In this document: in pieces, positions 622 to 62,704 of the stretch | How positions within the stretch are numbered: the stretch's first letter is position 1 | Layout: every line of letters starts with the position of its first letter | From: Vibrio sp. B1FLJ16 | GTDB lineage: Bacteria; Pseudomonadota; Gammaproteobacteria; Enterobacterales; Vibrionaceae | Assembly (NCBI RefSeq): GCF_905175385.1 | Contig: NZ_HG992749.1 | Location: forward strand, 2,170,001-2,234,000 | DNA: 64,000 bases | Direction: 5' to 3' | Translations under genes and position numbers: made by a program | Notes under the pieces: model-generated | The model's database searches: none | What the model was told of the DNA's origin: nothing | The model's input: only the letters and a program-made list of their open reading frames with translations

Positions 622-801
622 ATACCAACCGAAGTAAATAGCCACTCATCTTAGCTTGCTAAACATTCAACACCTGCGTTACGTTTTTCGTTATTAAAGA
701 CGGTTTGGTTGCAGAGCAACAACCGACCGAAAAAGTACGCTTGGTTATCAAACACTTCCGCTTAACTACTTATGATCACTAAATTACTGTGATTGGTATT
801 A
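622..801 (-). repeat. intergenic hairpin repeat, copy 1, in flagellin leader
   Basis: The element is bounded by ATACCAACC at 622-630 and GATTGGTATTA at 791-801, an imperfect terminal inverted repeat. On the minus strand its core reads an AACCAAGCG-like box, a hairpin (arms at 701-711 and 720-729) and AACGCAG (about 674-680). Order and end sequences match the copies at 16776 and 24103, although the interior has diverged. It lies between the sigma-28 type promoter at 861-888 and the flagellin start at 599, so it would be transcribed as part of the leader. Confidence 0.7.
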
Positions 802-16207: not shown

Positions 16208-16938
<731 letters not shown>

Positions 16939-24048: not shown

Positions 24049-24102
24049 CGTTTAACGAACTCCTTACCTATACCGCAACTCAGATAAAAGCTGCGAAACT
24101 TT

Positions 24103-24266
24103 ATACCAATCTGGATAAGTAAGTGGTCAATGTATTGCTCAGGAAAAATCATTTAGAACAAGGCATAGATTGCTTTAACTAGTTATTCTAATTGCAAAAT
24201 CTATAACGCAGCTATCAGCGATTTTAACCAGCAAGAATGATCAAGTACTTATTTAGATTGGTATTA
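24103..24266 (+). repeat. intergenic hairpin repeat, copy 2
   Basis: Ends ATACCAATC (24103-24111) and GATTGGTATTA (24256-24266) form a terminal inverted repeat. The core has AACAAGGC (24157-24164), a hairpin 24167-24202 with outer arms AGATT and AATCT around TAG-TTATT-CTA, then AACGCAG (24205-24211). The stop codon of gmhA (minus strand TAA, 24264-24266) is the last three bases of the element. Confidence 0.8.
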
Positions 24267-60433: not shown

Positions 60434-61162
60434 TTATTCAGCTTCTACGAAACCGTCTTTTTCAGCAACTACTGCAACGTCTTTGTTGCGACCTTCAGTT
60501 ACTGCAGATGCAGCAGCGTTTAGGTATAGTTGAACAGCACGGATCGCGTCGTCGTTACCTGGGATGATGTAGTCAACGCCGTCTGGGTTAGAGTTAGTAT
60601 CTACCACAGCGTATACTGGAATACCTAGGTTGTTAGCTTCTTTGATTGCGATGTGTTCGTGATCAGCGTCGATTACGAATAGAGCGTCTGGTAGGCCGCC
60701 CATATCTTTGATACCACCAAGAGATTTCTCTAGCTTCTCCATTTCACGAGTACGCATTAGAGCTTCTTTCTTAGTTAGCTTGTCGAAAGTACCGTCTTGA
60801 GACTGAGCCTCTAGGTCTTTTAGACGCTTGATAGACTGACGAACAGTTTTGTAGTTTGTTAGCATACCGCCTAACCAGCGGTTGTTAACGTAAAACTGGT
60901 TGCTTGCGATTGCAGCTTCTTTAACAGCTTCAGATGCAGCACGCTTAGTACCTACGAATAGAACTTTACCTTTCTTCTCGCCAACTTTAGCTAGTTCAGC
61001 TAGAGCTTCGTTGAACATTGGTACAGTTTTTTCTAGGTTGATGATGTGAACGCGGTTACGAGCACCAAAGATGAATGGCTTCATTTTTGGGTTCCAGTAA
61101 CGAGTTTGGTGACCGAAGTGAACACCAGCTTTCAGCATATCGCGCATTGATACAGTTGCCAT
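60434..61162 (-). CDS. rpsB: 30S ribosomal protein S2
   Basis: Small-subunit protein, 242 residues from ATG 61162 ([20 protein letters not shown]); the frame runs 11 codons further upstream without family similarity. Family blocks [26 protein letters not shown] and [19 protein letters not shown]. First gene of the long minus-strand block, with a strong promoter and a structured leader of nearly 200 bases. Confidence 0.98.
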
Positions 61163-61345
61163 TTTAAAATCCTCTATGGGGTTAGGCCTCCACATTCCCC
61201 ATAACTCCGACCAAGCTTCTGCTCAGCACCCCGGAATATGTGTCGGAATGTGTGTGATTTAAAGATAAAAGTTTTTTGGATAAAGCCTGCTTCGCCACTC
61301 AGGGTTTTCTGAGTGAAGAGAACAGACCTCTATATCCGGCGCGCT
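61163..61345 (-). promoter_or_regulatory. rpsB leader, possible S2 autoregulatory RNA
   Basis: Transcribed leader of about 180 bases before rpsB. It contains a hairpin CACTCAG/CTGAGTG near 61296-61315 and a GGGG/CCCC pairing close to the ribosome site. In other gammaproteobacteria S2 represses rpsB-tsf through its leader; I place this by position and structure only, without a covariance search. Confidence 0.5.
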
Positions 61346-61454: not shown

Positions 61455-61724
61455 TTAGGGTCTGTTGACCTTTCGAGCTGATTTTTGCAGCAATTTGTGG
61501 ATTCTTTATACAAGGCAGAGGCTTTGAAATGTAGTTATTCTACTTGATAAGCCGATAACGCGGTAGAAAGGAGCCAAAAATGCTGCCCGAAGGATTCGGC
61601 TAAAAGCGTTTTACTCTTTGTTGAGAGGTGTTTGCTTAGAATGACTAGGCTACAAACCTCTCGCCGCGATTAAAACGCTTTTATCTCGAACAAAATTTAA
61701 CCGCGAAAGGTCAACAGCCCCTAA
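61455..61724 (+). repeat. MITE-like structured repeat between rpsB and map (copy 4 of hairpin core)
   Basis: 270 bases with 21-base terminal inverted repeats (61455-61475 and 61704-61724, TTAGGG.CTGTTGACCTTTCG, one mismatch) and no ORF. Left half: CAAGGC (61511-61516), hairpin 61520-61553 with GGCTT/AAGCC and GTAG/CTAC, AACGCGG (61557-61563), the same core as the other three repeats. Right half: nested stem AAAAGCGTTTTA (61602-61613) with TAAAACGCTTTT (61671-61682), enclosing GAGAGGT/ACCTCTC. The ends resemble those of insertion sequences, and TA lies at both borders, so it may be a non-autonomous element moved by an IS elsewhere. Confidence 0.82.
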
Positions 61725-61825: not shown

Positions 61826-62704
61826 ATGTCAATCAAGATTAAAACTGCTGAAGAAATCGAACGCATGCGCATTGCGGGCAAGCTAGCCGCAGAAGTTCTA
61901 GAAATGATCGAGCCGCATATTAAGGTCGGCGTAACGACAGAAGAGTTAAATAAAATCTGTCATGAATACGCTCTAGAAAGAGGCGCGTACTCTGCACCGC
62001 TTGATTATCATGGATTCCCTAAGTCGATTTGTACCTCTATCAACCACATCGTTTGTCACGGCATTCCGGCAGAAAAAGATGAGATTGGTAGCAACGGTCA
62101 GCTAAAACCCGCTGTACTGAAAGATGGCGACATCATTAACGTTGATATCACTGTTATCATTCCTAACGATGAAAACGCAGATTTGAGCGTTCGCCCTCAG
62201 GGTTACCACGGTGATACTTCGAAGATGTTCTTAGTTGGTGAAGTTTCTCCGGCTAACAAGCGCCTTTGTATGGTTGCCCAAGAGTCACTTTACATCGGTA
62301 TGCGTCAGGTTAAACCAGGCGCAACGGTTGGTGATATCGGTACTGCGATTGAGAAATACATTAAAGAAAACAACAAGAACAACCCGCGTAATAAGTTTTC
62401 TATTGTGAAAGACTTCTGTGGTCACGGCATCGGTGATGAGTTCCACGAAGAGCCGCAAGTGGTTCACTACAAAAACAAAGACCGCCGCGTACTAAAAGAA
62501 GGCATGTGTTTCACAATTGAGCCAATGATCAACGCTGGTAAGTTCGGTTGTAGCGTTGATGCGCAAGACGACTGGACGGTTTACACAGGCGACGGTAAAA
62601 ACTCCGCTCAGTGGGAACATACCGTTGTAGTGACGAAAGACGGTTGTGAAGTTCTGACACTTCGCAGCGACGATTCTATTCCACGCCTGATGAAAAACGC
62701 ATAA
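61826..62704 (+). CDS. map: methionine aminopeptidase type I
   Basis: Removes the initiator Met from nascent proteins. 292 residues, longer than E. coli Map (264). Metal ligands are visible: Asp in NVDITVI, Asp in HGDTSKMF, His in GHGIGDEFHE, Glu in FTIEPMIN and the last Glu in QWEHTVVV. Between the two Asp ligands lies a 13-residue insertion (around PNDENADLSVRPQG) relative to E. coli. Divergent from rpsB. Confidence 0.97.
   Translation: MSIKIKTAEEIERMRIAGKLAAEVLEMIEPHIKVGVTTEELNKICHEYALERGAYSAPLDYHGFPKSICTSINHIVCHGIPAEKDEIGSNGQLKPAVLKDGDIINVDITVIIPNDENADLSVRPQGYHGDTSKMFLVGEVSPANKRLCMVAQESLYIGMRQVKPGATVGDIGTAIEKYIKENNKNNPRNKFSIVKDFCGHGIGDEFHEEPQVVHYKNKDRRVLKEGMCFTIEPMINAGKFGCSVDAQDDWTVYTGDGKNSAQWEHTVVVTKDGCEVLTLRSDDSIPRLMKNA

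Follow-up and report, generated by a model that had tools for sequence, protein, structure and literature searches.

ERIC (IRU, RU-1) is a 127-bp repeat of Enterobacteriaceae and Vibrionaceae that, like the repeats described here, carries no gene, and it has been in use for strain typing for decades. REP and REPIN sequences are strand-specific hairpins, often arranged as inverted pairs, with a RAYT transposase, and the attC sites of integrons keep little sequence but a conserved fold, one strand being favoured. To our knowledge, the Correia/NEMIS and YPAL repeats have no core in common with the present elements. In the passages of PMC10969869 and PMC2229807 that deal with them, Correia/NEMIS and YPAL are short mobile repeats whose transcripts form hairpins, and Correia RNA is cut by RNase III; their likeness to the present elements, as structured MITEs, is one of description. 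According to the same passages, ERIC transcripts are affected via an RNase E site, with orientation crucial. The review PMC2229807 states that no DNA structure or function motifs besides the terminal repeats had been found in ERIC, and the ERIC of V. cholerae was argued, in a passage of PMC2267715, to be unable to fold and perhaps not to act on RNA stability.

The stretch of 64,000 nucleotides analysed here, C1:2170001-2234000 (the window) of a Vibrio genome of 4.78 Mb in two contigs, was found to carry four MITEs, i.e. short gene-less transposons. Judged by sequence, such elements appear to be linked by a common core and not by their ends, and the core is apparently new. They are unlike REP/REPIN in that their core is much larger and that they have terminal repeats and duplicate TNA or TA, and unlike integron attC sites in their fixed AAGGC/AACGCA and TTATT loops and their MITE context. 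The only match to Rfam 15 at gathering score in the window was t44, which lies elsewhere than the copies; at E <= 10 copy 3 gave only a chance match to SNORD5, and no match was found in 6 and 11 further loci. No account of the core was recognised in the literature by title and start of abstract, where Romine 2008 (Shewanella) and Zo 2011 (ERIC) could hold part of it.

The four copies and their surroundings

All four repeats reported in the initial annotation are present, with the order box, hairpin, box described there. Cores were placed with the covariance model R1, described below.

622-801, minus strand: copy 1, MITE-like, its core long and its ends of the TACCAATC type
666-752, minus strand: core of copy 1 (R1, 20.1 bits, E 0.011)
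16777-16935, plus strand: copy 2, family A, flanked by TCA (16774-16776) and TTA (16936-16938)
16823-16891, plus strand: core of copy 2, with CAAGGC (16831-16836) and AATGCAG (16877-16883) (R1, 66.2 bits)
24104-24263, plus strand: copy 3, family B, with TTA on each side (24101-24103, 24264-24266)
24151-24219, plus strand: core of copy 3, with CAAGGC (24159-24164) and AACGCAG (24205-24211) (R1, 65.1 bits)
61458-61721, plus strand: copy 4, family C, with TA on each side (61456-61457, 61722-61723)
61503-61571, plus strand: first core of copy 4, with CAAGGC (61511-61516) and AACGCGG (61557-61563) (R1, 67.7 bits)
61608-61676, minus strand: second, inverted core of copy 4 (R1, 30.8 bits, E 1.6e-5)
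61181-61274, minus strand: t44 RNA leader (RF00127) at rpsB, adjoining copy 4

Copies 1-3 are alike at their ends (TACCAATC-like..GATTGGTA-like) and copy 4 has different ones (GGGTCTGTT..AACAGCCCC), as had been noticed before; the inverted core inside copy 4 had been overlooked. This second core has the degenerate boxes CGCGGC and AACAAAG and the hairpin tip TAGTCATTCTA. Copy 1 is a diverged relative of family A with a longer core, whose left box has changed to CCAAGC (744-739, minus) while AACGCAG is exact (680-674, minus); nine family A copies of the window genome have a comparable insert in the 3' arm.

A flagellin-like ORF (3-599, minus) has its start codon 23 nt beyond the end of copy 1, an NAD(P)H:quinone oxidoreductase gene takes its stop codon from copy 2, and the stop codon of gmhA (minus strand) is the right-hand TTA of copy 3. 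Copy 4 separates two divergent genes, rpsB on the minus strand (60434-61195) and one for a methionyl aminopeptidase on the plus strand (61826-62704). In the right part of A and B elements (window 16876-16935) the motif AGAATGA resembles the reversed tip of the second core of family C, and is either a relic or a coincidence.

Repeat families and mobility

With copy 2 as query (family A), 33 BLAST matches were obtained in the window genome, 25 of them spanning at least 154 of 163 bases. Copy 3 (family B) gave 42 matches, including the A copies, 11 being near full length with at least 82% identity, and copy 4 (family C) gave 44, fragments included, with 20 near full length. Copies 2-4 are 159-264 bp long and have inverted ends; no ORF of 100 amino acids lies inside copy 2 or 3, and none of 90 inside copy 4.

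A TNA duplication flanks 23 of 38 A, B and copy-1 rows, against 10.4 expected, and TA occurs on both flanks in 18 of 20 family C rows; TNA and YTAR targets are typical of IS5 subgroups. The site of copy 2 is empty in all eight related genomes read (L265-L272), for example GGCAG-TCA-GTAA in relative G134 where the window genome has TCA-element-TTA. With their target duplications, and with the empty site of copy 2, the copies are mobile elements. At the copy 2 site of a further relative, G115 (L273), another sequence, beginning TACCCGCC, follows directly after a TNA and is possibly a different element in the same spot.

No GGGTCTGTT-type end pair 421-2999 nt apart was seen within the 273 loci examined, and no transposase gene between family C fragments was recognised by eye among the ORFs of C2:724700-728600.

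Architecture and covariation of the core

The core of about 70 nt consists of an outer stem, the CAAGGC box, an arm of 14-16 nt, a TAG-TTATT-CTA tip, the second arm, the AACGCAG box and the other side of the outer stem. R1 was built on 25 chosen core rows, including copies 3 and 4 and leaving out the long-core copies and copies 1 and 2; copies 2-4 score 65-68 bits and copy 1 only weakly.

The arms had been described as changing in sequence while keeping their pairing, and the covariation tests gave strong compensatory change, surviving both permutation and slide controls. For the 25 rows from the window genome the covariation score was 0.402, against 0.171 in shuffled and at most 0.125 in slid alignments, and 81.9% of the cells paired (68.5% shuffled, 32-47% slid). 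In a 19-row alignment of 17 arm types from other records together with copies 3 and 4, which leaves out 15 of the 33 arm types (other arm lengths or cut flanks) and the shortened L144, the score was 0.604 (0.206 shuffled, at most 0.186 slid). The bare count of pairs with two-sided change is less telling than this score: 15 against 13.0 shuffled in the 25 rows, with 79 of 500 shuffles reaching 15, and 20 against 17.1 in the 19 rows, with 4 of 500 reaching 20.

A pattern blind to pairing, AAGGC-N(12-24)-TAGTTATTCTA-N(11-25)-AACGC, was run on the GTDB genomes and found in at least 119 stretches, 80 of which, carrying 82 matches, are among the matches listed. These fall into 33 arm types by our own grouping (at most 7 differences). 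Over the 33 types, among the matches listed, the eight inner-arm positions adjacent to the boxes pair at 211 of 264 places, and in 20,000 re-pairings among the types never more than 126 were paired, which rules out chance palindromes. Although the pattern allows 12-24 and 11-25 nt, the arms are 14-16 and 14-15 nt long in all 82 matches listed. In IMG/VR the same pattern gave one match, as expected for chance, in coding-like sequence and with arms that did not look complementary by eye. The folds of single copies are poor evidence for the structure, with z values for copies 1-4 of -1.95, -2.47, -0.77 and -2.16 on the sense strand and -0.59, -1.30, -0.78 and -2.54 on the other.

One strand of the core is constrained

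Mismatches in the inner and outer stems of the 33 arm types among the matches listed are strongly asymmetric, with G.T 45 times and A.C 7 times, and A.G 71 and C.T 17 times. The G.T/A.C ratio of 6.43 compares with a mean of 1.86 and a maximum of 2.72 in 2000 re-pairings, and the A.G/C.T ratio of 4.18 with a mean of 1.72 and a maximum of 2.87. The strand read from AAGGC to AACGC also folds better in 27 of the 33 types among the matches listed, which in part restates the G.T bias. It follows from the asymmetry that the fold of one strand, and not a symmetric cruciform, has been kept: the constraint acts on one strand of the core in its folded state, and RNA and single-stranded DNA fit the asymmetry alike. 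A symmetric cruciform or arm-copying repair alone is disfavoured, since both would give symmetric mismatches.

The initial annotation had suggested selection on RNA or cruciform structure and not just mobile debris. Compensatory change agrees with the former, of which the symmetric cruciform is the part that is disfavoured; as to the latter, the structure is conserved, but the copies are mobile elements, as their target duplications and the empty site attest.

Fixed spacing under different ends and double cores

That one core sits in two frames had been recognised from the four copies; more end types were found, and the distance between the transposon tip and the start of the core stays at 45-48 nt under four different terminal sequences. 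Among the pattern matches listed, the distance is 45-46 nt in 21 of 21 cases with GGG-type ends, 45-47 nt in 10 of 12 with TACCC and 45-47 nt in 22 of 24 with TACCAA; these counts take an exact end motif upstream of the pattern match, keep related copies separate and allow one row to be counted in two groups. On the reverse of these stretches the motifs gave five scattered positions only. No recognised end pair was present in 22 of the 82 pattern rows among the matches listed.

Two further ends came from the searches of the class and the phylum, from which 20 stretches were taken, 18 being from beyond the class, with L338 left out; as these loci were found with the model, conservation of their boxes is partly by construction. 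The fourth end, AGGGAAGNGCTGA, lies 48 nt before the core in 6 of 7 loci and 42 nt in the other, and on the right side 47-48 nt after the core in 11 of 11 (19 loci examined). The fifth, GTAACTACT, was present on both sides in 3 of 19 loci, where the 45-48-nt spacing was absent by eye.

Double cores are not confined to copy 4. In the R1 search, 15 of 38 chosen loci had inverted core pairs, 17 pairs in total, and in the 15 pairs measured the starts of the two cores are 103-107 nt apart. The linkers in between are 35-39 nt long and, by eye, many of them contain a small CCC..GGG hairpin. The order is end, core, linker, inverted core, inverted end, as against end, core, inverted end in A and B elements. 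By eye, the two cores of one measured element differ in their arms while the boxes are mostly kept, and the pairs closing the tip also change, e.g. from TAG/CTA to TGG/CCC. In Vibrio penaeicida a second core (L152:1306-1374, minus) lies beside a TACC-ended element, apparently as a TATACCC-ended element inserted beside a TACCAA-like one.

Distribution

A covariance model of the core allows elements of this kind to be annotated. R1 gave 115 matches at E <= 1 in the window genome, 114 of them at E <= 0.021. At E <= 0.01 matches occurred in 38 of 61 relatives (12 of 25 genera), and at E <= 0.001 the class had them in 27 of 274 genomes and in 26 of 222 genera. In the phylum, at this threshold, 47 of 349 genomes had a match, 23 of these 47 being outside the class. 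The genera among the pattern matches listed include Vibrio, Aliivibrio, Grimontia, Shewanella, Colwellia, Pseudoalteromonas and Psychromonas, and further Alishewanella, Rheinheimera, Acinetobacter, Thiodiazotropha, Porticoccus, Venteria and one Nitrosomonas. Core-bearing elements occur in many marine and some other bacteria.

Relationship to ERIC

On the other strand, the E. coli ERIC consensus given in Table 1a of PMC2759123 reads GTTGCAG-CAAGGC-GGC...GCC-AACGCAG-CTGCAGC, so that, as in the window core, CAAGGC faces AACGCAG between two stems. AACGCAG is present twice in this consensus, 9 nt apart, and only the second faces CAAGGC. From AAGGC to the facing AACGC there are 62 nt in the tabulated consensus as against 39-41 in the core described here, the core lies about 18 nt from the transposon tip as against 45-48, and arms and hairpin tip differ. 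The TATACCC..GGGTATA ends of ERIC, as tabulated, resemble those of TACCC-ended core-bearing elements and are unlike those of window copies 1-4 (TACCAATC-type or GGGTCTGTT). On this comparison with the consensus, the agreement of 13 bases in equivalent structural positions speaks well, though not conclusively, for common descent, and ERIC is likely to be a relative of the window elements by its core; the copies themselves are regarded as not ERIC. That no name for the family was known, as the initial annotation put it, is half right, since the tabulated ERIC consensus (PMC2759123) carries the same two boxes.

An ERIC query found one place in the window genome, C1:553266-553392, and matched none of the four window copies; ERIC was present in 31 of 148 relatives and in 5376 of 5426 E. 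coli genomes. In the alignment of ERIC copies the best-kept places include AGGC and AAC, but most Vibrio copies read TAGGC/AACACC in place of the CAAGGC/AACGCAG boxes. The alignment has 28 rows, one of them empty, of which 25 were used for fold and mismatch counts. The strand with AGGC on the left folds better in all 25 copies, again partly a restatement of the G.T bias. In sense-fold pairs G.T outnumbers A.C by 76 to 6, in antisense-fold pairs there are 27 A.C and 7 G.T, and distinct column events number 15 to 8; the ERIC mismatch count was dropped as independent evidence on the strand.

Proposed function and alternatives

The best explanation, to which we assign a probability of about 0.45, is that the elements are MITEs moved in trans whose core would act as RNA in read-through transcripts, read by a factor. 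Cut-and-paste transposases would move them, targeting TNA for the TACC-ended type and TA for the GGGTCTGTT-ended type. The portable core, 45-48 nt from the tip, folds into a long hairpin as a single strand read from AAGGC to AACGC. Two features of this hairpin are fixed, an internal loop of AAGGC/AACGCA and, closed by a G-C pair, a tip loop similar to TTATT; the paired arms that separate them, 14-16 nt long, drift freely. Read-through transcription from an adjacent gene would present this hairpin to a conserved factor of the host, RNA-binding or RNA-cleaving, which may set the processing or decay of the flanking transcript, as has been proposed for ERIC and RNase E, and double-core elements would offer one sense core on either transcript.

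Such a role as RNA is plausible, and RNA rather than DNA is preferred because of the position near gene ends and of the ERIC transcripts treated in the cited passages of PMC2229807 and PMC10969869. In the window genome 17 elements lie between convergent and 8 between divergent genes, and the median distance between an element and the end of a gene reading into it is 69 or 44 nt. No bias in gene orientation was seen there (sense 19, antisense 18), nor in the pattern rows among the matches listed from elsewhere (sense 17, antisense 20), where 64 of 82 rows were placed between ORFs, these being defined simply by their length; at up to 60 nt from a gene end in the window genome, 15 genes read in with the core in sense and 21 against it. 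The even counts of sense and antisense insertions speak against a reading as RNA, as do the weak folds of single copies and the argument on V. cholerae ERIC in PMC2267715; double cores would explain the even counts, but the single-core A and B elements do not.

The missing orientation bias would suit a core that acts as DNA of one strand, either single-stranded or extruded. It would then belong to the transposon end as a subterminal part, fold while DNA is replicated or taken up, and be bound by a transposase or by a DNA factor of the host. One-strand folding of DNA would leave the same mismatch bias as RNA, the distance from tip to core is fixed under different ends, and in elements with inverted cores at 103-107 nt each end has a core of its own, oriented alike with respect to the tip. 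We nevertheless consider DNA folding rather unlikely, as a single reader must serve transposases with unrelated ends, A and B elements have one core for two ends, the core of the tabulated ERIC consensus lies about 18 nt from the tip, and no replication-fork bias was seen in the window genome (54 of 114, with the origin assumed at coordinate 1). A strand-specific structure without orientation bias, and 114 matches in one genome at E <= 0.021, could also be expected of a trans-acting RNA made by the core and serving the element family, e.g. by binding the transposase or its mRNA; several end types would need one common target, however, and no gene or transposase was found between such ends in the stretches inspected, which makes this improbable. 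Equally improbable is an absence of function, with common descent of a palindromic MITE and arm-copying repair keeping the arms complementary. The elements are indeed mobile and palindromic, and arm-copying repair of quasi-palindromes is known, but repair is blind to the strand, yet G.T/A.C and A.G/C.T are skewed beyond every re-pairing, and boxes, tip and arm length are fixed while the arms drift. The mismatch asymmetry has already weakened this explanation.

A wider reading, somewhat less likely than not, is that of a single portable, strand-specific hairpin core kept by selection across Pseudomonadota under at least four, probably five, unrelated ends, with ERIC as a long-armed member and a single conserved host factor reading the AAGGC/AACGCA loop and the TTATT tip; the core, and not the ends, would then make the elements succeed. 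Such a core may help to explain how about 100 copies per genome arise while the ends change, and, common to ERIC and many other repeats, it provides a definite ligand for isolating the host factor.

Variation at the hairpin tip

A Y-N-R-N-Y rule for the tip loop fits 61, 61 and 60 of 61 copies of the window genome at its three fixed places, but is weakened because most changes are transitions, which mutation bias could produce, and because the tip differs outside the class. In copies that are otherwise alike, few places vary as much as the tip loop (window 61535-61539; family C copies L031-L049): when the 264 columns of 19 family C copies of the window genome are ordered by entropy, loop columns come 1st, 7th and 11th.
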